Made by a program: the position numbers and the translations under genes
Shown here: one piece after another, positions 6,424-47,065 of the stretch
Layout of the letters: every line of letters starts with the position of its first letter
Numbering within the stretch: the stretch's first letter is position 1
From: Flavobacteriales bacterium
Lineage (GTDB): Bacteria > Bacteroidota > Bacteroidia > JANQJC01
Length of the DNA stretch: 59,094 nt
Direction: 5' to 3'
Assembly: GCA_028281825.1 (NCBI GenBank)
Contig: JANQJC010000081.1
Span: 1-59,094 of the forward strand
The notes under the pieces: generated by a model
Seen by the model: only the letters and a program-made list of their open reading frames with translations
Told to the model about the DNA's origin: nothing
Database searches by the model: none

Positions 6424-7788
6424 TTAAAACTTCACTAAGCGTTTGGCATAAGTGTAGTTATCAGCCTGCAACCTAAGTGTATAGAAACCCGGACTCAAGC
6501 CCATACCACTCATGTCAATATTTAGCAAGCTATAGTTGCTGGTATTGCCATATTCTTTTGCGTAAACCATTTGTCCATCAATTGAATATATCTCAACAGC
6601 TACTTTATCAGCTGATTGTGGTAACTCAACTGTGAAGAAGTCATTGAATGGATTAGGATATATGTTAATACTGTTATCAACTTTAGTAGGCTCCTCCACT
6701 GAAGTTATGTAACCAGCCTTGGCTGCATTGGCTGCCCAAGTAGTGTTGCTCTCTTTTTTGAATACAACAGCAATCACTGTCAACTTATCAATATCCCATC
6801 CTGAAGGAATGGTATAGTTGTAAGAATGGCTATAATCTGTGTTAGCAGCAGGGCTAGATGGAATAATACCACCAGTACCTGTTGCACCACCTAACATATG
6901 GCGAACTAGGTTATTGTGAATATAACCTGCAGGGGCATTGGTTTGTGGACCCGAAATACCGCTCTCCAATATGTAAGCGTTAATATAATAGTCACCAGCT
7001 TCAGCATACTTGAAGTTAACATCTATATCAGCTGTAAGCACCTTGGTTGAACTGTTAACATTCATGCTCAAAGTAATTGCAACAGGGCTGATGCTGCCCG
7101 ATTTACCGCTTACTTGACTTCCCCAGGTATTGTGTCCTGAGTTGATTTCATAACCACCAAACTCTCCCATATCTAGCACACCACCAGGGGTGAATATGCC
7201 AGAAGGGTAGTAGTCTTCCATGTAGTTTTCACCAGCTGTAAATGAGTAAGAGTCACTATTGTGGAACTTAGCCACAGCTACTTCAGGGCTAGATGCCATA
7301 TCTTGGGCAACAGTATTGGCAGGTGGGCAATGCTGACACCATGTAGCTGTATACACTTCAAACAGGGTAACTTTTGAAGCATAATTGTCAATTGCCTTAA
7401 AATTAACTGTTACGGTATCATTAGCATAATTAGTCTCACCCACTGCCTGCACCCAAATCTTCAATACATGAGCACCTTGCGAACTCACATTTAAAGGAGT
7501 ATTATGGGTATGTGGCATATAATAACCACCTGTGGGAAGCCCACCGCTTGAAATGTTAACAGTTTGCCCCCAATTGATAGAGCCATTATCCAAAGTCCAA
7601 CCAATTTTAAACTGGGTGATGTTTGAACCACTGGCATTTTTTAGGTTGCACTTGATAGTATAACCAGTGTTAGTCTTGACGTAAGGGCTAACCGATACGC
7701 TGGTAAGGTAACCATCGCCCGCAAAAGTGCTTAGTGCGGGAAAAAGTAATAATGTGGTAATTACTAATAGTTGAGTAAAGTTTTTCAT
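6424..7788 (-). CDS. Omp28-like thioredoxin-fold protein with T9SS sorting domain
   Basis: This is a 454-residue exported protein. It has a signal peptide (ending TFAG), then an Ig-like N-terminal half (about 25-135). A thioredoxin-like Omp28 domain follows (about 138-330) with CTATWCQHCPPANT-type sequence, so the active-site pair is CQHC, together with YYPSGIFTPGG. The C-terminus (about 375-454) is a type A T9SS sorting domain with NIYPNPFNDFF and a final GFYTLRLQ-type strand. It is expected to be secreted across the outer membrane and attached to the surface. Omp28-related proteins are surface proteins of uncertain role; the CxxC suggests redox or structural disulfide chemistry, which is inference. 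It is a single-gene unit ended by its own terminator. Confidence 0.85.
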   Translation of the reverse strand: MKNFTQLLVITTLLLFPALSTFAGDGYLTSVSVSPYVKTNTGYTIKCNLKNASGSNITQFKIGWTLDNGSINWGQTVNISSGGLPTGGYYMPHTHNTPLNVSSQGAHVLKIWVQAVGETNYANDTVTVNFKAIDNYASKVTLFEVYTATWCQHCPPANTVAQDMASSPEVAVAKFHNSDSYSFTAGENYMEDYYPSGIFTPGGVLDMGEFGGYEINSGHNTWGSQVSGKSGSISPVAITLSMNVNSSTKVLTADIDVNFKYAEAGDYYINAYILESGISGPQTNAPAGYIHNNLVRHMLGGATGTGGIIPSSPAANTDYSHSYNYTIPSGWDIDKLTVIAVVFKKESNTTWAANAAKAGYITSVEEPTKVDNSINIYPNPFNDFFTVELPQSADKVAVEIYSIDGQMVYAKEYGNTSNYSLLNIDMSGMGLSPGFYTLRLQADNYTYAKRLVKF

Positions 7789-16092: not shown

Positions 16093-16497
16093 ATGAAAAA
16101 GTTTGTCTTTGTTGCCTTAGTGAGTTCATTGAGTATTGCCTTGCACAGCTGCTGCAAGTTGTGTACTGTTGATTACAGCAACATCAAATTCTATGGATTC
16201 AATGCGAACGAAATGGATAGCATCTCCATTGTCAAATATGAGGCAGGAACAGCCGTAATTAAGGATAGTATTCCAATTTATGTTGCTAATGATGGCGACC
16301 ACTTCTCTTATCGCTTAACGGAGAAAATCCGTGATGACTATGATTATCACATACTCATGCATAAAGCCAAGCAAACGCATGAAATTACCGATGTAACTAT
16401 TGACACCAGGAAATGTGATTGCGACGAAACAGAATATCTCAGGAGCTATGCACTGAATGGGGAAGGTAAGGAAGGGAATATTGAAATTCATAAATAG
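16093..16497 (+). CDS. Small lipoprotein, unknown function
   Basis: This 134-residue protein has a signal peptide ending in ALHSC, with a second Cys just after (SCCKLC), so the lipid-carrying Cys is probably the first. The mature part is beta-rich and ends in a Cys pair (KCDCDE) that may pair with the N-terminal CKLC. No family is recognised. The 255 bases upstream hold a TACTTTTA -7-like box about 12 bases before the ATG and a TATAAT at 16052-16057. The gene ends at a strong bidirectional terminator. Confidence 0.6.
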   Translation: MKKFVFVALVSSLSIALHSCCKLCTVDYSNIKFYGFNANEMDSISIVKYEAGTAVIKDSIPIYVANDGDHFSYRLTEKIRDDYDYHILMHKAKQTHEITDVTIDTRKCDCDETEYLRSYALNGEGKEGNIEIHK

Positions 16498-16499
16498 TC

Positions 16500-16533
16500 A
16501 ATAAAAAAGGGCGAGTTCTCGCCCTTTTTTATT
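16500..16533. terminator. Bidirectional rho-independent terminator
   Basis: A perfect inverted repeat has 16-base arms (16500-16515 and 16518-16533) with the GC core GGGCGAG/CTCGCCC. It has A-tracts on one side and T-tracts on the other, so it can end transcripts from both the lipoprotein gene (rightward) and the S74-domain gene (leftward). Confidence 0.92.
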
Positions 16534-16549
16534 GATTCATGTAATGATT

Positions 16550-18937
16550 TTACTTCGTTGAAACCATTCTTTCTGTTCTCACTACTTCTCCGTCCTTTAT
16601 TAATGAATAAGTGAAGATGCCTTTTCCTATCTCAGAGGAATACAACCTGACCGTTCCGTTATCGTCATTGGTTTGTATCCTTTTCACTATCCTGCCTGAA
16701 ATATCAGTTACCACAATCTCGCACTTTTCACAACCATTCGCCTCAAACTTGATGTCTGTATAATCGCTAAATGGATTGGGATCATTTTTAAGAAGCACAA
16801 ATTCTTCACTTACAGAATCGCCATTACCGTTTTCTGTGCTTCCAAGTCCGGTAACCTCAGGCTTCACAGCACAGCAACCATATAACTCTTCACGTAGCTC
16901 TTGCATTTCTCGCCTCAAGTCATCCAGTTCAGCTTTGCTCTCTTTTAGCTCAGCTATCTCGGCTTCCTGTTCTTTTACTATGGCTAATAAGTACACAGGT
17001 AACTTATGATATCTAACACCTCTTACTTCAGTTTGGCTTGGATCTTCAATAATCACCCCGTTATCATCCAGTACTATCGAACCATCAGGATTATATTTCC
17101 TTTGTGGCCCTCTCACTGCAAGCTCGGGAAAAGTCTTGTCAACTTCTTGGGCTATTAAGCCAGCATCACGTCCTCCACCATAGGCTTCTTTCCAATCAAA
17201 ATTAACAGGACGTAGACTCAAAAAGGCTTCTTTATCAAAATCTATGTCTTCAACATTTTCTTTGAAAACGGCTGATGAAGCTGTCAAATCTACTAATTGG
17301 CCATTTGTGTTAATACCCAAATTATTATCAGACATACCGGCTGCAGGAGTGTTAGTAACCGCAGCTGTACCAGTAACATGTAATGTATAACTGGGCGAGG
17401 TAGTATTAATACCTAAATTACCATTAACATCCATTAGCATTTCAGTAGTGGTATAATTTCTCCAACGGAACAATGGACGTGTTTGAACAGCGGCCTCTGA
17501 CCTTCTGGCATTAAATGATAATACCGCCGTTGTACCTGCATCTGATTCAGAATCTATTTCTCCAATCACATATAAACCACTAGCTGATGATAATGACTCA
17601 TTGTGGCCCGTAATAGACGGAGCAAAATAACCATCAGTTTGTGTAGTGTTTTGAACTATAAAGAAGTTATCCGCATCATCTGATACTGTAAATTTAGCAA
17701 TGGTCTCTCCCAATGAAGTAATAGCATCTTCTCTTACGTGCAAACGAGCGCTAGGACTTGCAGTATTGATACCTAAGTCACCATCCGCAGTCATTTGCAT
17801 TAAAACTGAGCTGCTATTTCTCCATCTAAACAATGGCCTTGTACTTAAATCCGCTCCAGTTGATAATTGTGCATCAAACGTCATAGCTGGCAAAGTACCT
17901 GAATCATACCCACTATTAACTAAGCCTCTTATAAACAAAGGTTCAAAAGTTGTACTATTAGTTTGGCCAATAATCGCCCCAGAAAAATCACCATTTCCAG
18001 TTGAGCGATTTTGAATCATCAAACGCTCATTTGATACATCGGAATCTGAAGCTGTAAATAGCGCAATGGTTTCATCAGAAGAAGCAACGGCATCAGCATG
18101 TACTTCTAGTTTAATAGATGGGCTGTTAGTACCTATTCCAACTGCATTAGTACTGGCTTTTAAGCGCATAAGCTCACCACTATTGTTCAGATAGAAACCT
18201 ATATCTTTATTATCTACCAATTGCCTCATATACAAAACATCAGCACTGCTACTATAAAGTGATGAGATAGCTGTACCAGCCTTTGCAAAATAAAGCCTAC
18301 CTACTTCTCCACTTGCTTTATCCAAATATACATCCGTATTACCGCTCGTCTCATCTCTTATGTGCAAAATCCCACTTGGGCCCGTCGTTCCGATACCTAC
18401 TCGTCCCCAATTTCCGGTAGCCCCCTCGGCACCTTCAACAAAAACGGTAGGCAAATTACTATTCATTCCAATCATGATAGAATTAGAAATATTGTTAATC
18501 ATACTATTAGACCGCAACCCTGTCCCGAATAGATAATTCTTGCTATAACTAGTATTTGCCTCCAAATCCTCACCTATCGCTACACTATTAGTCCCATCCG
18601 CATCAACTGTATTCCCAATTGCGAAGGCTTCAGAACCTGCAGCAGTTGCTGACCCACCAATTGCAACGCTAGCACTACCACTGGCCGTAGCATTTTCACC
18701 TATTGCCACACCATCTGCTCCCGATGCTGTTGTACTAACTCCAATCGCCACCGAATTATTTCCAGAAGCCACTGCAGCATCTCCTTGAGCAAATGCACAA
18801 TCTCCAGTAGCTGAAGCTGCAGTTGTGCAATTAGTAGCATTGCACTGCTCACATTGAGCAAAAACTTGCATGTTTATTCCAGTAAAAAGCATTACTATGA
18901 TGCTCAATAACCTAATTGTTTTGTGTCTTGTTTTCAT
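16550..18937 (-). CDS. Surface protein: YadA-like head repeats, S74 chaperone domain, T9SS tail
   Basis: This 795-residue exported protein has a signal peptide (ending QVFAQ), then YadA-like collagen-binding head repeats at about 41-128 (SVAIG, GVAIG, AFAIG spaced by about 14 residues). A fibre region follows with repeated GIGTxSPS/LGINTxSPS blocks, each preceding a HVRED or LHVTG segment. An S74 intramolecular chaperone domain runs from about 550 to 660 (FKENV, FLSLRPVNFDWKE, GLIAQEV), then a coiled coil (about 640-690), a Cys-bearing linker and a T9SS sorting domain (about 715-795, NDPNPFSDYTDIKF). S74 domains trimerise fibres and then cut themselves off; the Ser554-Lys559 pair expected for this is present. 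Trimeric display is inference. Confidence 0.85.
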   Translation of the reverse strand: MKTRHKTIRLLSIIVMLFTGINMQVFAQCEQCNATNCTTAASATGDCAFAQGDAAVASGNNSVAIGVSTTASGADGVAIGENATASGSASVAIGGSATAAGSEAFAIGNTVDADGTNSVAIGEDLEANTSYSKNYLFGTGLRSNSMINNISNSIMIGMNSNLPTVFVEGAEGATGNWGRVGIGTTGPSGILHIRDETSGNTDVYLDKASGEVGRLYFAKAGTAISSLYSSSADVLYMRQLVDNKDIGFYLNNSGELMRLKASTNAVGIGTNSPSIKLEVHADAVASSDETIALFTASDSDVSNERLMIQNRSTGNGDFSGAIIGQTNSTTFEPLFIRGLVNSGYDSGTLPAMTFDAQLSTGADLSTRPLFRWRNSSSVLMQMTADGDLGINTASPSARLHVREDAITSLGETIAKFTVSDDADNFFIVQNTTQTDGYFAPSITGHNESLSSASGLYVIGEIDSESDAGTTAVLSFNARRSEAAVQTRPLFRWRNYTTTEMLMDVNGNLGINTTSPSYTLHVTGTAAVTNTPAAGMSDNNLGINTNGQLVDLTASSAVFKENVEDIDFDKEAFLSLRPVNFDWKEAYGGGRDAGLIAQEVDKTFPELAVRGPQRKYNPDGSIVLDDNGVIIEDPSQTEVRGVRYHKLPVYLLAIVKEQEAEIAELKESKAELDDLRREMQELREELYGCCAVKPEVTGLGSTENGNGDSVSEEFVLLKNDPNPFSDYTDIKFEANGCEKCEIVVTDISGRIVKRIQTNDDNGTVRLYSSEIGKGIFTYSLIKDGEVVRTERMVSTK

Positions 18938-19027
18938 AACATGAATTATTTTTGGTTAATAATAATCAAATTTAACACATTATTATAAATAATAACAACA
19001 AACATTATTTTTAAATTAATAACTCGT

Positions 19028-37812: not shown

Positions 37813-39939
37813 TTATCGATGCCGAACAACCTTATGAGTAGAAATTCCCTTTTTAGTTTCAACGCGCAATAAGTATACTCCTGAAGAGAGGTCGCTCATA
37901 TCAACCTTGCAAAAACCAGTTTGAGTTGACAAGAAAACTAGTTCCCTTCCCATCACGTCAATCAAGTGGATATTAAAACTATCAGTCCCTCTCACAAACA
38001 ACTCACCCTTTACTGGATTTGGATAGATAAAGAGTTCCGTTTGACTGATTTCTTCAACTCCCACCCACATATTATATGGTTCTGATTGATTACTGCATCC
38101 ATTAGTATCACTTATTTCAACCATGTACTCGCCCGAGTTTTGAGGGACTATATAATAATTAGTTGCATTTGCAACCATATTGCCATCCTGATACCACTGA
38201 TAATCATAGCCAAGGTAAGTAAGCAGGCTATCACCTTGCTGAAACACATCTGGAACAGGCGGTAAATCATTGACAAAAACTGTGGCTTGGTCGCTGTTTT
38301 GGCACCCCGTAATGGTATCAATAGTTGTTAAGGTATAGTTTGTAGTTACTGTAGGCGAGGCTTGTGGATGAATGAAAAAAGGATGGTCTAAACCAATTGT
38401 TGGTGACCAAATATACAATTGCCCTTGAGCCCAGCCATCTAATTGCCCTTCTTCTCCTTTGCATATTTCTACATCATTGCCAGCAGATACAAATGGAGCA
38501 GGTATTACATCAATTGAAACACTATCCAAGCTCTCACAATATCCATTAGAGACAATAACTGTATATACGCTACTAGCATCGGGAAAAGCTGCGGGGCTTG
38601 CCAGGTTGGGGTTACTCAATCCAAAAATCGGACTCCACAAATAAATAGTACCACCTGCTGCACTCAATATCACTGTCTCACCTTCACAAATAGACGTATC
38701 AGAACTAGTCAACACCTCTGGGTAATCATGGATATTAACCATCAACTCGACGGTATCACTCTCGGCTTGCCAGTGATTAATTTCTTGCACCGTTAGTTCT
38801 GAGCTGCCTATTTGGTTATAGCTTATATATACTATGCTACTATTGGCATTGCTACCTACAATTTCTCCATTACTTATTGTCCAACAATAGTTAGAACTAC
38901 TCTCCGCTCCATTGATGGCATACTCTATGGTATCCCCAATGCACACATCCTCCTCACCATCTATTTGTGGTAGTTCAGGCTTGAGCAACTGCTCATACAG
39001 AAATTTAGAAGATTTCTCTACAATGGTATCGAGTTGGTTAGGGTCCGTAAGCCAGGGCTCGTGGCCCATCCCGTCAAACACATAAAGCTGGTTGGGTATC
39101 CCAAGATGGTTAAGGCGAGCGGTTATTTCCAAGGAACCATTGACTGGAGGAAAAGCTGGATAGCTAAACGGCACTCCATTATCAAATGGCACAGCATTAT
39201 CCTGATTACCATGCATGGATAGCATAGGCGGGTCTCCGACTTCAATAATGCTGGTATCTAAAGTTGCTCCCCAATAGTTTAATACTGCCCTTGCCTTGCT
39301 TGGCCCAGGAAAATAGTTACCCGAACAATCCAGGCAGCCTAAATCTGGATTATCGTAGGTAGAGGGTATTGCCTGTCGTTCATGCTCATCACCATAGGTT
39401 GAGAATATAGCCATGATACTACCTGCACTATTACCACCTACATAGAGCTGATTAGTATCTATCCTAAAGGTATCTGCTTTGGCCTTTACCCACCTCACTG
39501 CTGCATTCATATCTTGCACTGCTCGGTATACCGCTCGCTCAATACTTGGTGTACTCACTGTATTAAAACACTTTCTATAATCGATTGAGAACACCACAAA
39601 ACCTCGCTTGGCCATTTCATAGCAATACTCTTCTACAGGTATAATGCGCTTATCACCAATCAAAAATGCACCACCATGTGCATAAACTATACATGGCCTT
39701 TTACTCAATGTATCTCCGTCTGGCTCATACACGTCAAGGTTATAATATTGTATGCTTTGATTGGTTTCAATGGCGCATGCCCCTTGCAACGCATAGGATT
39801 GGTTGTAATTCAAATCTTCATGGGTTCTGGAAGAGTTGAATATGGCATTCAGATATCTGTTGCTGGTGCATTGCGCATTAGTATCAACAAGCAATGCTAA
39901 AACCAAAAACACAGAAAGGAAATATCTCACTTGAACCAT
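37813..39939 (-). CDS. Secreted alpha/beta-hydrolase esterase with T9SS tail
   Basis: About 708 residues from ATG 39939, two codons inside a TTG. The signal peptide ends DTNAQC. A BD-FAE/carboxylesterase-type domain (about 20-320) has oxyanion HGGAF, nucleophile GGNSAGS, a likely acid in HGNQDNAVPF and the final His in GMGHEPWL. PKD/Ig-like modules follow (about 325-615; repeated CIGDT/CEGET/CKGEE starts and YLWSPIFGL / YIWSPTIGL). The protein ends in a T9SS type A sorting domain (IYPNPVKGELFV ... GVYLLRVE). It is likely displayed or released to cut ester side chains such as acetyl or feruloyl groups on polysaccharides; the substrate is inferred only from family. Confidence 0.88.
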   Translation of the reverse strand: MVQVRYFLSVFLVLALLVDTNAQCTSNRYLNAIFNSSRTHEDLNYNQSYALQGACAIETNQSIQYYNLDVYEPDGDTLSKRPCIVYAHGGAFLIGDKRIIPVEEYCYEMAKRGFVVFSIDYRKCFNTVSTPSIERAVYRAVQDMNAAVRWVKAKADTFRIDTNQLYVGGNSAGSIMAIFSTYGDEHERQAIPSTYDNPDLGCLDCSGNYFPGPSKARAVLNYWGATLDTSIIEVGDPPMLSMHGNQDNAVPFDNGVPFSYPAFPPVNGSLEITARLNHLGIPNQLYVFDGMGHEPWLTDPNQLDTIVEKSSKFLYEQLLKPELPQIDGEEDVCIGDTIEYAINGAESSSNYCWTISNGEIVGSNANSSIVYISYNQIGSSELTVQEINHWQAESDTVELMVNIHDYPEVLTSSDTSICEGETVILSAAGGTIYLWSPIFGLSNPNLASPAAFPDASSVYTVIVSNGYCESLDSVSIDVIPAPFVSAGNDVEICKGEEGQLDGWAQGQLYIWSPTIGLDHPFFIHPQASPTVTTNYTLTTIDTITGCQNSDQATVFVNDLPPVPDVFQQGDSLLTYLGYDYQWYQDGNMVANATNYYIVPQNSGEYMVEISDTNGCSNQSEPYNMWVGVEEISQTELFIYPNPVKGELFVRGTDSFNIHLIDVMGRELVFLSTQTGFCKVDMSDLSSGVYLLRVETKKGISTHKVVRHR

Positions 39940-40002: not shown

Positions 40003-43000
40003 TTAGCTTACTTTAATTCCCATCACGAGAATATCGTCAATTTGAGGTGTTTCTCCCTGCCATTGTTCTAGCTCTTTTGCCAAAGCCAGTTCCTGTTCTT
40101 TCACAGGCAATTTTGACAACTTAACCAGTAGTTTCTTAAATCTACCCGTCATATACTTCTTGGCCTTAGGACCTCCAAATTGGTCTGAGTAACCATCTGA
40201 GGACATATATATCATGTCTCCTTTGTTAAGCTTTACAATACGGTTGTCGTATGTGTAGTCCCCCTCTAGCATTCCTGATATCGGGAATTTGTCCCCTTCA
40301 ACTTCTTTTAGCTCGCCGTTGCTTATGATATATGCCGGCCTTAATGCCCCGGCAAATTCAGCTTCAAGAGTTTCAACGTTCAAGCGCATCAATACTATAT
40401 CCATGCCCTGTGCGGTATCAAACTCCTTAGCGCTTTGCATAAATGCCAGTTTCAACCCATCGTTAAGTTCCTTTAGCACTTTTGCAGGGTCGGTCATTTT
40501 ATCTTCAATAATTATGTGGTTAAGCAAGTCACTGCCTATCATTGACATAAATGCACCAGAAACTCCATGCCCTGTGCAATCTACAGCGGCCACAAACACA
40601 TCGTTGCCATTTTTGTAATACCAGTAAAAATCTCCACCTACTATATCTTTTGGTTTATAGAAGACAAAAAACTCATCAAAAGCCTTACTCAATTCCTCAT
40701 GGCTTGGAAGTATGGCCATTTGTATATTCTTGGCATAAGTGATACTCTCCGTAATGTGGGTATTCTTTTCCTCTATCACCGATTTCTGCTCCCTGATTTC
40801 CTCTGTCCTCTCCATCACCACTCGCTCAAGTTCTTCTTTCTCCTTCACAAGTCTCATCTCACGCCACTTCACATATATAATTAGTACAAGAAGTATAGAA
40901 CCACTCAAACCAGCATAAAACCAAGTAGTTTTCCAAAACGGAGGCGTTATTATAAATGAAAACTCCACTGGATTGTCATTCCACAAGCCCTCATTATTAC
41001 ACGCCCTAAGTTTAAAAGTATACTCCCCAGGTGGTAAATTAGAATAGTTGGCCTCCATCATATCCGTCGGTGGCACCCAATCTCTATCCAAACCCTCAAG
41101 CATCCATTGATATCTCACCTTTTCTGGTGAAGTATAACTAGCCGCAATAAAGTGGAACATCAAATAGTTTTGGTCATACGGCAAGGTCAGGTCAATTGGC
41201 AAACCATTGGCCGTAACCTCTTTGGCATAATCTTTCCAATCTACTTCTTTAAAAAACAACTCTATATCCGTGATAGATATTTGAGGTTCCACATAGTTCT
41301 CATGCAATTTGGCAGGATTAAGTTTGGTTACTCCGTCCATAGTGCCAAACCATAAATTACCCAGCCTGTCATAAAGAGATGCATTGTCATTACACTCTAT
41401 ACTTATAAAGCCATCCTCACGGCCATAGTGCTTTATTTCCAGCTTTTGTTGGTCATTGATGCTTATTCTATTCAACCCGTTTTGTGTACCAGCCCACAGT
41501 ATACCCGTATGGTCAAACACCAATGAGTGCACATTGTTTGAACTTAAGCCATCAGTCATGGTAATAAAGTCAGGCACCCCATTACTAAACCTCATGATAC
41601 CCTCACCTTCAACCCTAAAGAACAAATGCCCCGTTTTGTCTTGAACTATTTGCTTCACAGGAGCATTTTTCAGCCCTTCTTCTTCAGTAAAAGTCCTTAT
41701 CTCATATTCTCCCGACTTAAGTCCATCGTATATTATCTTACAAACCACACCGCTATATGTTCCCAACCAAATATTTCCAAAATGGTCTTCATGTATTGAC
41801 ATGATTCGGTTAGTATTCCGGTCTTCACTTATAGATAAGGTCTCAAAGCCTAATTGGGAGTGCCTTGCTATACCAAAATCCGTTGCGAACCAAATATTGC
41901 CCTCCTTATCACTTATCATGTCGTTGATTATATTGTCCGGCAGTCCCGACTCCTCGGTGTAATTAATCACCCTGTTTCCTTCATACTTATACACTCCACC
42001 AAAATCCATAGTGCCAAACCACAAGTTACCAGCAGCATCTTCAGCTATAGTGCTTATATAATGACTATTTAGGTCCTCATCAATGTCAAACGGAACAAAA
42101 CGCTCGTCTTTAAGCTGAAACACACCACCGCCTTCATTTCCGACGAAAACAGTCCCCTTACTGTTCTTAAAAATTCTAGTGACTTTTACAGCATTAAGAC
42201 CATCGTCTTTCCCATAGTGCATAAACGCCAAATCATACAAGCATGCCAAACCGTTATTGGTGGCTACCCATAAGTTCCCCTCCTTATCCACCAATAAGCC
42301 ATTTACCTGACTACCAGGTAACCCATTCATCTCACCTATATTGGTAATTGCATCACCCTTCAACACACTTATTCCATCATAGGTGCCTAGCCAAGTATAG
42401 CCCTTCTTATCCTCACTTATACTTGTTATTTGAAAACTTGCCAAGCCTTCCGCAGGCCCAACATTGTTAAAAAACTCTCCATCAAAACGGCTAAAACCAT
42501 TGGTAGTACCAATAAGTATCTCCCCCTTAGAGTTTTTCTCAAGTCGCGTAATATAGTTTCCAGGAAGTCCCGTTGCAGTCGTGTACCTTATTGATTCACC
42601 CTCTTGAAACCTAAATAATCCACCGCCATAGGTTCCTACCCATATATTACCATGGTCATCACATAATATGCTTTGGGCATAGGTATTATCCAACCCGTTC
42701 TGGTCGTTCAGGTCAAAAAACTTTTCGCCATCCCAACGAGATACACCACTAAAAGTAGCTACCCATATATTACCATTAGGGCCAATAGCCAGCCCTTTTG
42801 CATCATTGCTTAAAAGGCCATCATTTTGGTCGTAGCCTTTAAATCTTTTTCCATCAAATTTGGCTATCCCCTTGTTTTCGCATATCACCCACAAATTCTG
42901 CTCGGTGTCTTGTGTGATATCCACCACCTTGCTACTAGGCAAACCATGGTCAAGGCTGTAATTTTCGAACCTTCTTCCATCAAATGAACTTAGGCCACCA

Positions 43001-43176
43001 TTGGTACCTATCCAAATTACACCGTTATTCGCCTGAAAAACACAGTTTACCTGGGCCTGAACAAGTCCATCACGCGCTGTGTATACCCTGAAATTGTATT
43101 GTTGGGCAAAACAGCTATACGCTCCAAAAAAGGATAGTAAGATTAATGATAATGATAGCCAGTAAAATTTCCTCAT
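40003..43176 (-). CDS. Two-propeller periplasmic sensor with cytosolic PP2C (SpoIIE) phosphatase
   Basis: About 1057 residues. The signal peptide ends CFAQQ. About fourteen Reg_prop blades (residues about 30-620, each with GNIWVGT- or NLWFGT-like strands) make two seven-bladed propellers. A Y_Y_Y Ig-like domain follows (about 625-745, YSNLPPGEYTFKLRACN), then one membrane helix (about 750-770), a charged coiled coil (about 775-815) and a PP2C/SpoIIE domain (820-1057). All metal Asp are visible: VGGDF, DCTGHG, SSDGYSDQFG and QIDD. An external ligand would thus control dephosphorylation of a cytosolic Ser/Thr phosphoprotein. The hybrid-kinase output usual for such sensors is absent. The start is ATG 43176. 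Confidence 0.92.
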   Translation of the reverse strand: MRKFYWLSLSLILLSFFGAYSCFAQQYNFRVYTARDGLVQAQVNCVFQANNGVIWIGTNGGLSSFDGRRFENYSLDHGLPSSKVVDITQDTEQNLWVICENKGIAKFDGKRFKGYDQNDGLLSNDAKGLAIGPNGNIWVATFSGVSRWDGEKFFDLNDQNGLDNTYAQSILCDDHGNIWVGTYGGGLFRFQEGESIRYTTATGLPGNYITRLEKNSKGEILIGTTNGFSRFDGEFFNNVGPAEGLASFQITSISEDKKGYTWLGTYDGISVLKGDAITNIGEMNGLPGSQVNGLLVDKEGNLWVATNNGLACLYDLAFMHYGKDDGLNAVKVTRIFKNSKGTVFVGNEGGGVFQLKDERFVPFDIDEDLNSHYISTIAEDAAGNLWFGTMDFGGVYKYEGNRVINYTEESGLPDNIINDMISDKEGNIWFATDFGIARHSQLGFETLSISEDRNTNRIMSIHEDHFGNIWLGTYSGVVCKIIYDGLKSGEYEIRTFTEEEGLKNAPVKQIVQDKTGHLFFRVEGEGIMRFSNGVPDFITMTDGLSSNNVHSLVFDHTGILWAGTQNGLNRISINDQQKLEIKHYGREDGFISIECNDNASLYDRLGNLWFGTMDGVTKLNPAKLHENYVEPQISITDIELFFKEVDWKDYAKEVTANGLPIDLTLPYDQNYLMFHFIAASYTSPEKVRYQWMLEGLDRDWVPPTDMMEANYSNLPPGEYTFKLRACNNEGLWNDNPVEFSFIITPPFWKTTWFYAGLSGSILLVLIIYVKWREMRLVKEKEELERVVMERTEEIREQKSVIEEKNTHITESITYAKNIQMAILPSHEELSKAFDEFFVFYKPKDIVGGDFYWYYKNGNDVFVAAVDCTGHGVSGAFMSMIGSDLLNHIIIEDKMTDPAKVLKELNDGLKLAFMQSAKEFDTAQGMDIVLMRLNVETLEAEFAGALRPAYIISNGELKEVEGDKFPISGMLEGDYTYDNRIVKLNKGDMIYMSSDGYSDQFGGPKAKKYMTGRFKKLLVKLSKLPVKEQELALAKELEQWQGETPQIDDILVMGIKVS

Positions 43177-43275
43177 CAACTATTGCTTCAACAAAGCCTC
43201 CGGATAAAGACTCTGTCTTACTACGTTGATGTGTTAAGAAAGTTTCTAAAGCTGCTATGCTATTGACTTACTGCT

Positions 43276-44014: not shown

Positions 44015-47000
44015 ATGAAAAAATTAGTCTACTCATTAGTTGCTCTTGCAATCTCAGCTTTTGCAATAGCTCAGCCAAACCCTAATGATTTCTTCATCAG
44101 CGGGTATGTTACAGATTCTAACACAGGTTATGCCATAAGTGGACATACGGTATGTGCATACTCCGATACCACTAACCAGGGTAACGTTATCTTTTATGGA
44201 TGTGATACTACTAACGCTAATGGTTACTATTCCATCAATGTTCCAAATGGTAGCGTTACAGGTCCGAATGTTACTTATGTGGTATACACGTGGAATTGCC
44301 AAAATCAATACTTAGATACTACCGTTATTAATGGCCAGGGCTCTATTGACCACGCTGATGTTGATTTTGCTATTTGCGATAGTAATAGCACTGGCAATTG
44401 TTCTGCTAGCTTCTCTTTTTCAGTTACTCCTAATGGTTCAGTAGCATTCACTTATACAGGCTCTACACAGCCAAATCAGACTTACTCTTGGAGTTTTGGT
44501 GACGGTTCATCTTCAAACCAGGCTAACCCATCTCATTTTTATAATAGCAATGGCCCTTGGTATGTATGCGTTACAATTAATGATGGCTTTGGTTGCACAT
44601 CAACTTACTGCGATACAGTTGGGTTTAACACACCTCCTTCTTGCAATGCCAACTTTACAATGCAAGTAGATTCATCAAATGGAGTGTATATAGTGACTTT
44701 ACAAAGTACTTCATCAGGAACAAACCCGATAAGCTATAACTGGTGGGTTGATGGTTCTCAATACTCAGGTGCCAGTGTTGTGCATACCTTTCCTGGCCAA
44801 GGTATTTACGGCATATGCCTGGATATCACCACAGCCGACTCTTGTTCTAGCTATCTGTGTGATACCCTCTACATAGGTACCGGCGGTGGAAACAACTGTA
44901 ACACACAGTTTCAGTACTCTCAAAACCCTAACGGAAGCTTTCAATTTTACTCCAATGGAAATAACAATTGGAACTACATCTGGGATTTTGGTGATAATAC
45001 TATATCACATGTATCAAATCCAACTCATTATTATACCAACCCTGGTACTTACATAGTATGCCTCACTGTAATCGATTCAATCACAAACTGCACTGCAACA
45101 CACTGTGACACTGTTGTTGTACAATCAACTACTACCTGTAATGCTGACTTTACAATGCAGGTTGATTCGTCTAATGGAGTGTATGTGGTAACACTGCAAA
45201 GTACATCGACAGGAACAAACCCCATAAGTTATAACTGGTGGGTTGATGGTTCTCAATATTCAGGTGCAAGTGTTGTACATACTTTCCCTAGCCAAGGCCA
45301 AGGTATTTATGGCATATGCCTGGATATTATCACAGCCGACTCCTGCACTAGCTATATGTGTGACACCCTATTCCTGAACAACAATGGGAATAATAACTGC
45401 AACCCCAATTTCCAATACAACATGACTGGAAGTGGAGCAGTTCAATTCTACAGTTCAGGTAACAATAACCAATCATATTCATGGGATTTTGGTGATGGGC
45501 ATACATCTTCTGTTGCAAACCCACTACATACTTATTCAAGTTCTGGTCACTATGTTGCCTGTTTAACCGTGTCTAATCCAGCTAGCGGATGCTCCGCTAC
45601 ATATTGTGACACTATCACAGTTGGAGGAAATCCTAATGGATGTCAGGCAAACTTTTACGCTGTGCCAGATAGCGTTACTTTGCCACCTCAAACATCAAAT
45701 GCAATATTCTTCTACGACCAATCTAGTGGTAATCCAAACTATTGGTATTGGGATTTCGGTGACAACTCAACATCAACACAACAGAACCCGGTACACCAAT
45801 ACAACAGCCCTGGAACCTACTATGTTTGCTTGACGATAGCTAACTTAGGTTCAAATTGCACTAGCACTTACTGTGACACTGTAGTTGTTGGCAATAACCA
45901 AACTGGCCCATGCCAGGCATCGTTCACACATTCGTTAAACCCAAATGGTGGAATTAGCTTCCACGGATACTCTAATCAAAACCTGGTTCAATACCAATGG
46001 ACTTTTGGTGATGGCTCTACAGGAACTGGTCAAAATGTTAACCATGTATATAGCAGTCCAGGCACTTACACTGTTTGCCTTACCATATACAACACATTTG
46101 GATGCCAGGACACCTATTGTGCGCAAGTGTCATATGGTAACAACAGTAGTGGCTTCTGTATTGCTGGTGAAGTTAATGCAGGTACACCAAATCAACGCGC
46201 TGATGCTGGCCTGGTATACCTTATCAGCTATGATAGCCAGACTAACATGCTAACAGCAGTGGATACTACTCTTATAGACTCTGCTGGATACTTTGCTTTC
46301 TGCCAGGTTCCAGGTGGTCAATACCTTGTAAAAGCTGCTTTAACGCCTAACTCGGTGTATTATTCCAACTACTTGCCTACTTATTATGGTAACTCTCTCT
46401 TCTGGGATTACGCACAATACGTTACGGCTAGTACGGTATACCCATTCATCACCATCAACCTGATTGCTGGAAACAACCCAGGTGGCCCAGGCTTTATAGG
46501 TGGTGATGTTACTCAAGGTGCCAATAAAACCAATGGCCCCGGTGACCCAATTGGAAGCGTACAAGTGATGTTGCTGGATATGAATGATAACCCAATAGGG
46601 TATACCTACACCAATGCGCAAGGACAATTTAGCTTCCCTGATATCGCATATGGCACTTACAAGGTATATCCAGAAGTTACGGGTATCAATACCACACCAG
46701 CCATAGTTACAATTGATGCTAACCTTCAATCTGTTGATAACATTCATCTATACCAAAGCACATCTGAAATTTCTACTGGCATAGCAAATGGCATTACTGA
46801 GGAATTAGAGGTTAGTGATATCTATCCAAATCCTACAGCTAATGAAGCGTTCATTACATTTGATTTAACTAAACCAGCTGATATAAACATCAGAATCTTC
46901 ACTTCAACTGGTCAGTTAGTTAGTGATAATATGACTCAACTAGGTGAAGGAATTCAAAAGGTTGAAATTAATACTGATGGCTTAGATGGTGGTATCTACT

Positions 47001-47065
47001 TCGTTCAGTTTACTGAAACAGAAGGCCTGTTTAACCTAAACAAGCAAATGATACTTACCAGATAG
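44015..47065 (+). CDS. Large multi-PKD surface protein with T9SS tail
   Basis: This 1016-residue secreted protein has a signal peptide ending AFAIAQ. An N-terminal carboxypeptidase-regulatory/SdrD-like sandwich (about 25-125) is followed by seven PKD-type beta-sandwiches (about 130-710) recognised by YSWSFGDGSSSNQANPSHFY, YIWDFGDNT and YQWTFGDGS motifs; each carries a Cys pair (VCVT/VCLT ... TYCDT). Two more sandwich modules (about 715-930) and a T9SS sorting domain (about 940-1016, DIYPNPTANEAFITF) complete it. It is probably an adhesin or matrix protein. Modules 2 and 4 are near-identical copies. It has its own terminator. Confidence 0.9.
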   Translation: MKKLVYSLVALAISAFAIAQPNPNDFFISGYVTDSNTGYAISGHTVCAYSDTTNQGNVIFYGCDTTNANGYYSINVPNGSVTGPNVTYVVYTWNCQNQYLDTTVINGQGSIDHADVDFAICDSNSTGNCSASFSFSVTPNGSVAFTYTGSTQPNQTYSWSFGDGSSSNQANPSHFYNSNGPWYVCVTINDGFGCTSTYCDTVGFNTPPSCNANFTMQVDSSNGVYIVTLQSTSSGTNPISYNWWVDGSQYSGASVVHTFPGQGIYGICLDITTADSCSSYLCDTLYIGTGGGNNCNTQFQYSQNPNGSFQFYSNGNNNWNYIWDFGDNTISHVSNPTHYYTNPGTYIVCLTVIDSITNCTATHCDTVVVQSTTTCNADFTMQVDSSNGVYVVTLQSTSTGTNPISYNWWVDGSQYSGASVVHTFPSQGQGIYGICLDIITADSCTSYMCDTLFLNNNGNNNCNPNFQYNMTGSGAVQFYSSGNNNQSYSWDFGDGHTSSVANPLHTYSSSGHYVACLTVSNPASGCSATYCDTITVGGNPNGCQANFYAVPDSVTLPPQTSNAIFFYDQSSGNPNYWYWDFGDNSTSTQQNPVHQYNSPGTYYVCLTIANLGSNCTSTYCDTVVVGNNQTGPCQASFTHSLNPNGGISFHGYSNQNLVQYQWTFGDGSTGTGQNVNHVYSSPGTYTVCLTIYNTFGCQDTYCAQVSYGNNSSGFCIAGEVNAGTPNQRADAGLVYLISYDSQTNMLTAVDTTLIDSAGYFAFCQVPGGQYLVKAALTPNSVYYSNYLPTYYGNSLFWDYAQYVTASTVYPFITINLIAGNNPGGPGFIGGDVTQGANKTNGPGDPIGSVQVMLLDMNDNPIGYTYTNAQGQFSFPDIAYGTYKVYPEVTGINTTPAIVTIDANLQSVDNIHLYQSTSEISTGIANGITEELEVSDIYPNPTANEAFITFDLTKPADINIRIFTSTGQLVSDNMTQLGEGIQKVEINTDGLDGGIYFVQFTETEGLFNLNKQMILTR
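44642..44869 (+). repeat. Copy A of a duplicated PKD module
   Basis: This is a 228-base coding repeat (CNANFTMQVDSSNG to DTL). It is highly similar to copy B at 45137-45370, by eye about 85 percent identical in DNA and more in protein, whereas the other PKD modules are much more diverged. Confidence 0.85.
45137..45370 (+). repeat. Copy B of a duplicated PKD module
   Basis: This is a 234-base coding repeat, six bases longer than copy A because of an in-frame tandem CCAAGG CCAAGG duplication (about 45292-45303) that turns GQG into SQGQG. Confidence 0.85.

Follow-up and report, generated by a model that had tools for sequence, protein, structure and literature searches.

The closest described counterparts of the protein reported here are the MAT (mosaic adhesive trimer) fibres of Bdellovibrio bacteriovorus, in particular their S74 subgroup (Bd3182; PMC10769870). 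These are cell-encoded, secreted mosaic fibres, with 13 S74 paralogs in the Bdellovibrio genome; a conserved N-terminal β-rich domain of about 130 aa follows the signal peptide, and the chain ends in an S74 or other tip domain. Bd3182, a cellular S74 fibre, is cleaved at S782, and the S782A mutant loses its localisation (PMC10769870). In the S74 fibres of phages (endosialidase NF, T5 pb1 and the phi29-type neck appendage), a triple-β-helix is followed by a C-terminal chaperone and coiled coil with the Ser-Lys pair, and the chaperone, being the C-terminus, is shed to expose the tip. In MYRF/MrfA, the S74 domain (ICA) is internal, and its cut separates an N-terminal trimer from a C-terminal part that serves localisation. 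Two further groups are relevant for the ends of the chain: T9SS type A substrates, which combine a signal peptide with a C-terminal β-sandwich sorting domain (CTD), and the type Vc adhesins (YadA, BpaC), which carry β-roll-type head repeats.

The locus analysed here encodes a protein which has features of all of these. With the MATs it shares the mosaic, cell-encoded and secreted design, similar shaft loops (8ojn), the Ser-x4-Lys motif of S74 and a large paralogous S74 set (17 in this genome), but it ends in a T9SS CTD, fibres of its type usually lack an N-terminal module, and it has a Cys-rich, YadA-like head start, Ser555 in place of Asp and a Cys-Cys pair after the coil. Unlike the phage fibres, it has an export/anchor signal beyond the chaperone, and the sensor Arg was not found. 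It resembles MYRF/MrfA in the internal position of S74, with a localisation signal downstream of the cut; the localisation part there is a transmembrane segment and the passenger a DNA-binding domain. Compared with type Vc proteins, it has no YadA anchor and another export route; it belongs to the S74 domain family and to the T9SS type A substrates and falls outside type Vc. No single domain is new, and automated annotation names each of them. Among open-licence papers, we found none joining S74 with T9SS and none discussing the S74-plus-CTD design, its invariant pair or the Cys-Cys association; in a review of T9SS effectors from 2023 (PMC10202324), none of the terms S74, trimer, oligomer or chaperone appears.

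Results

Gene Organisation and Genomic Context

The window (the whole stretch of DNA analysed, 59,094 nucleotides) contains the fibre gene as an open reading frame of 795 aa with an ATG start (Table 1). Its exact coordinates agreed with those of the first-pass annotation, which had given no strand; the gene lies on the minus strand. It forms a single-gene unit with its own terminator, which separates it from a convergent gene (16093-16497), and the sequence TAAATTTG upstream of the ATG may serve as its promoter, judging from its consensus. The neighbours code for aminopeptidase P (M24), a DUF6056 protein, a GT87-like protein and urocanase, and no phage genes were found among them. The window also holds three further T9SS CTD proteins (CTDs at 6430-6663, 37825-38028 and 46820-47026), one of which carries PKD repeats (44015-47065), and a large sensor-type protein (40003-43179) with two-component propeller, Y_Y_Y and SpoIIE phosphatase domains.

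Table 1. Features of the fibre gene and its product, with positions in the window.
Feature	Residues	Position	Strand	Basis or remark
Fibre protein gene, 795 aa	1-795	16550..18937	minus	ORF with ATG start
TAAATTTG		18967..18974	minus	Resembles Bacteroidota -7 box TAnnTTTG, 29 nt before ATG; consensus only
Sec signal peptide	1-28	18854..18937	minus	By inspection; cleavage near AQ/C
Cys-rich start of mature chain	C29, C32, C37, C47	18797..18853	minus	
YadA-head-like repeats, period 14	41-128	18554..18817	minus	PF05658, PDB matches, shuffle test
β-helical shaft	129-545	17303..18553	minus	Bdellovibrio fibre 8ojn match, loop motifs
Shaft loop 1, VGIGTTGPSGIL	180-191	18365..18400	minus	Loop motif
Shaft loop 2, VGIGTNSPSIKL	266-277	18107..18142	minus	Loop motif
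Shaft loop 3, LGINTASPSARL	388-399	17741..17776	minus	Loop motif
Shaft loop 4, LGINTTSPSYTL	508-519	17381..17416	minus	Loop motif
Tandem shaft unit	266-387 and 388-507	17417..18142	minus	48 identities / ~120
S74 / intramolecular chaperone domain	554-642	17012..17278	minus	PF13884, AlphaFold2, Foldseek 7dc3
Ser554 (TCA), predicted nucleophile	554; scissile bond 553/554	17276..17278	minus	
Ser555, in place of usual Asp	555	17273..17275	minus	Precedes short helix in model; putative N-cap
Lys559, predicted general base	559	17261..17263	minus	
Long coiled-coil helix	643-689	16871..17011	minus	AlphaFold2 model
Vicinal Cys688-Cys689 at coil end, candidate interchain disulphide lock	688-689	16871..16876	minus	
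Flexible linker, presumed PorU cleavage zone	690-712	16802..16870	minus	Low pLDDT ~697-709; PorU role from literature
T9SS type A CTD	713-795	16553..16801	minus	TIGR04183, pLDDT, Foldseek
Bidirectional intrinsic terminator		16498..16535		RNA fold z = -8.0

N-Terminus, Head and Shaft

The Gln at position -1 of the signal peptide leaves no lipobox, which argues against a lipoprotein. Cys29 and Cys37 at the start of the mature chain are conserved in two paralogs of the same architecture (designated C83 and C30). The eight cysteines of the protein fall into three groups, at residues 29-47, 688-689 and 736-739; the last is a CxxC (Cys736, Cys739; window 16721-16732) within the CTD, also present in paralog C83 and a homologue (L207).

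The YadA-type head repeats proposed in the first-pass annotation were confirmed by YadA_head (PF05658), which matched above the Pfam cut-off (E 1.6e-7; best stretch residues 71-97), and by a shuffle test. Identity at lag 14 was 0.45 against a maximum of 0.28 across 2000 shuffles, so the period is not an artefact of composition, and in the PDB phmmer matched it to the heads of trimeric adhesins, BpaC and YadA among them. The proposal of a tail-fibre-like shaft likewise held, with a phmmer match to the Bdellovibrio fibre 8ojn. The shaft carries four loops of the motif GI(G/N)TxxPxxxL, and a unit of about 121 residues is duplicated in it, which is present as a single copy in C83 and C30.

The S74 Domain and the C-Terminal Sorting Domain

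Peptidase_S74 (PF13884) matched residues 554-606 with an E value of 7e-11 (42.6 bits against a cut-off of 22). Ser554 aligned with profile position 1, and Ser554 and Lys559 with the two catalytic residues of MYRF and of S74 proteins from phages (PMC8326128), in agreement with the Ser-x4-Lys spacing pointed out earlier. An AlphaFold2 monomer of residues 500-795 was built from an alignment (A2) of the window protein's C-terminus and 45 CTD-bearing homologues, in which Ser554 and Lys559 are invariant. Its mean pLDDT was 82, with values mostly about 95 in S74 and the coil and 92-98 over most of the CTD. The only PDB match of this model at E ≤ 0.001 in Foldseek was the MYRF ICA domain (7dc3), which together with the profile match establishes the proposed S74 domain; weaker matches were PorZ, PorU and the T9SS translocon complex 8gl8. 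By sequence, the A2 profile matched the phage tail fibre 6f45 (6e-20) and MYRF (4e-16).

For the C-terminus, NCBIfam TIGR04183 (T9SS type A sorting domain) gave 26.9 bits, over its cut-off of 23, and Por_Secre_tail matched residues 720-784 with 26.7 bits, 0.3 below the Pfam cut-off of 27. Hence, of the three profiles suggested by the first-pass annotation, YadA_head and Peptidase_S74 were found and Por_Secre_tail fell just short, with TIGR04183 above its cut-off. The genome (4.02 Mb, 144 contigs) encodes SprA (2128 bits), and type A CTDs were matched in it at least 150 times; with TIGR04183 and the fold matches of the CTD, this supports the proposed T9SS substrate. A cut at 553/554 would, as had been remarked, detach the chaperone together with the sorting signal.

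S74 Proteins in the Genome and the Class

The combination is not a one-off fusion. A CTD is present in five of the genome's 17 S74 proteins (the window protein, C83, C30, C91:74281 and C96). C83 and C30 share the full architecture, with identities to the window protein of 51% and 39% in the head and 57% and 40% in the CTD. Relatives of the same architecture were also found in Bacteroidia and Flavobacteriales MAGs (L193 and L195; L194 is cut at its 5′ end); a search for genomes of the same family returned the window's own genome only.

A second profile (A1), which begins nine residues after the Ser and hence cannot select for the Ser/Lys motif, matched in 194 of 295 genomes of the class. From its best-scoring places 162 distinct S74 domains were taken, of which 48 had a CTD, 109 ended shortly after the coil and five were of other kinds; these counts describe a sample of high-scoring matches to a CTD-bearing seed, sorted by a home-built CTD classifier made from four seeds.

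Some variants were also seen. In L163 and L173, from other genomes of the class, a tandem S74 pair with Ser-x4-Lys in both domains lies within a single protein bearing a T9SS CTD. L215 and L220 have S74, Cys-Cys and then a further region of ~200-300 residues before the CTD, so the CTD does not always adjoin the coil. Three tandem S74 paralogs with YadA-like repeats and no CTD are found on one contig (G000 contig C16:123865-128091; L028).

Several CTD-less S74 proteins, e.g., L018, L020, L023, L027 and L037, carry an N-terminal module. In those with a readable N-terminus, NYQA(V/A)xRD was found in 6/31 and LD-KGxLxPR in 12/31, and neither module occurred in the 18 CTD-bearing S74 proteins, counts by regular expressions being approximate. 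The modules are possible anchors. CTD-less fibres may thus be anchored N-terminally like MATs, and CTD-bearing ones C-terminally with the YadA-like head outermost; S74 cutting would then free the tip in the former and detach the entire fibre in the latter.

Conservation of the Ser-Lys Pair

In the A1 sample, the Ser was kept in 47/48 CTD-bearing and 109/109 CTD-less S74 domains, and the Lys in 47/47 and 109/109, respectively. The sole exception for Ser (L106), a CTD-bearing fragment, looks like a truncated gene; the N-terminal part of S74, which holds the motif, is absent in every frame. Only a conserved Gly (593) matches the pair in constancy. The Ser-to-Ala mutants T5 S1264A and MYRF S587A were both produced and crystallised (PMC4690869, PMC8326128), so the Ser is dispensable for folding; its constancy, with that of the Lys, in CTD-bearing S74 domains therefore favours cleavage, and suggests that these proteins do self-cleave.

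Two other positions were compared. The oxyanion-supporting Arg is R897 in endosialidase NF (PMC8326128) and R1250 in T5 (PMC4690869), about 14 residues upstream of the Ser; no Arg or Lys was found in residues 500-553 of the window protein, and among the CTD-bearing homologues 10/47 have one at -20 to -8. K671, the substitute basic residue of MYRF, aligns with Tyr643, and another residue could serve as the basic support in the window protein. At +3, a basic residue is present in 95% of CTD-less and 60% of CTD-bearing S74 domains; the window protein has Val.

Ser555 and the Asp-Less Clade

The motif of the window protein reads SSAVFK, against the canonical SDxxxK. An Asp after the Ser is usual in S74 and is not known to be essential; "SD" is absent here. 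At +1, Asp was found in 46/47 CTD-bearing and 108/109 CTD-less domains, the exceptions being the window protein and its paralog C6:3778. Searching with a profile (A4) made for the S74 type seen in the window protein gave 18 more members with Ser, Thr or Asn at +1, all of which (18/18) keep Ser and Lys. The resulting Asp-less clade of 19 domains had an SH-aLRT support of 99%, and with Ser and Lys kept throughout it, the reading of Ser555 as a dead, decaying S74 was rejected. In the AlphaFold2 model residue 555 stands directly before a short helix, and the common helix N-caps are Asp, Ser, Thr and Asn, which would make the substitution a structural rather than a catalytic one. An S74 domain exchange with a CTD-less paralog, as indicated by a first tree, was also rejected, since closer homologues regrouped the window S74 with CTD-bearing ones.

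A Cys-Cys Pair at the Coil End

Vicinal cysteines beside trimeric or coiled-coil segments form interchain disulphides in type III collagen and the matrilins. A Cys-Cys at the coil end was found in 20/47 CTD-bearing S74 domains of the sample versus 0/109 CTD-less ones. With the Asp-less clade included (in which 8/8 CTD-bearing and 0/11 CTD-less members have the pair), the figures were 27/54 and 0/120. To see whether it is a general feature of CTD linkers, S74-free CTD proteins were compared; the pair was rare there, in 2/24 (an apparent paralogous pair) as against 27/54 with S74. When the comparison was corrected for phylogeny, only two informative pairs on well-supported branches were left, and shared ancestry may lie behind the association. 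The position of the pair and its company with the CTD suggest that Cys688-Cys689 acts as an interchain disulphide lock on a trimer.

Discussion

We propose that the protein is a chromosomally encoded, homotrimeric surface fibre of the phage-tail-fibre or MAT kind, exported by Sec and then by T9SS. The C-terminal S74 domain and coiled coil would set three chains in register, a disulphide at Cys688-Cys689 would probably lock the trimer, and the β-helical shaft would zip towards the N-terminal YadA-like head, which would be the distal, putatively adhesive end because the CTD is C-terminal. The three CTDs would bring the folded trimer through SprA/PorV, and PorU would then remove the CTD. Ser554-Lys559 is predicted to self-cleave before Ser554, most likely after complete folding and at or after export, and the cut would separate the fibre from a chaperone stump. 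To this reading, i.e., a homotrimer which S74 and the coil assemble, which T9SS exports and which is cleaved N-terminally of Ser554 at or after export, we assign a probability of about 0.55. T9SS is described as carrying its cargo in folded form, through a barrel of 36 strands (PMC9251779); the S74 β-helix tip of Bdellovibrio is 40 Å across (PMC10769870).

The timing is a real problem for this model, since cutting in the periplasm after folding would deprive the fibre of its export signal. The main rival avoids it: S74 would be a trimerisation chaperone only and stay uncut, with PorU anchoring the C-terminus to LPS, so that the exported trimeric fibre would be a permanent adhesin. Ser555 at +1, Val at +3 and the failure to find an upstream or K671-like basic residue speak for this, as does the location of S74 next to the cell-proximal end, where cutting would detach the fibre. 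On the other hand, no intact CTD-bearing homologue departs from Ser or Lys, nor does any member of the Asp-less clade, which is hard to account for without catalysis, and we regard the uncut form as the less probable of the two, though one to be taken seriously. Cleavage in the periplasm before export is improbable. It would have a disulphide-locked S74-coil-CTD handle exported separately or with a non-covalently held fibre, in line with known S74 domains, which cut once folding completes (PMC4690869, PMC3742443), and with the Cys-Cys lying on the handle side and occurring only with a CTD in the S74 sample. However, the chaperone interface of T5 was judged weak enough to let go once the chain is cut (PMC4690869), which would probably leave the fibre behind.

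Two further readings were rejected. The S74 domain and tail-fibre-like shaft could recall a prophage or tailocin tail-fibre gene, a very improbable origin given the signal peptide, the CTD and the non-phage neighbours, in a single-gene unit with its own terminator. More improbable still is a trimeric (type Vc) autotransporter adhesin: the YadA_head match is set against a C-terminus that is a T9SS CTD, and up to E = 1 there was no YadA anchor or stalk match, the missing membrane anchor ruling this class out.

Beyond cleavage as such, the proposed trimer with its cut at or after export points, tentatively, to a recurrent device of Bacteroidota in which S74 self-cleavage would part a trimeric fibre from the T9SS signal that it carries: the chaperone and CTD would be locked by cystines, three linked signals would export the assembled trimer, and cutting would release the fibre from an anchored stump. 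If so, it would be a folding-triggered release or quality-control step, which is not described for T9SS, and an autocatalytic folding sensor would separate a cargo from the signal for its type IX export. It raises the question of whether the T9SS can carry a pre-assembled covalent trimer, and whether cutting comes before or after the outer membrane. These proteins would also widen the known range of S74 fibres, now phages, MYRF and Bdellovibrio, by a set of Bacteroidota surface proteins that is large, common and apparently unstudied.
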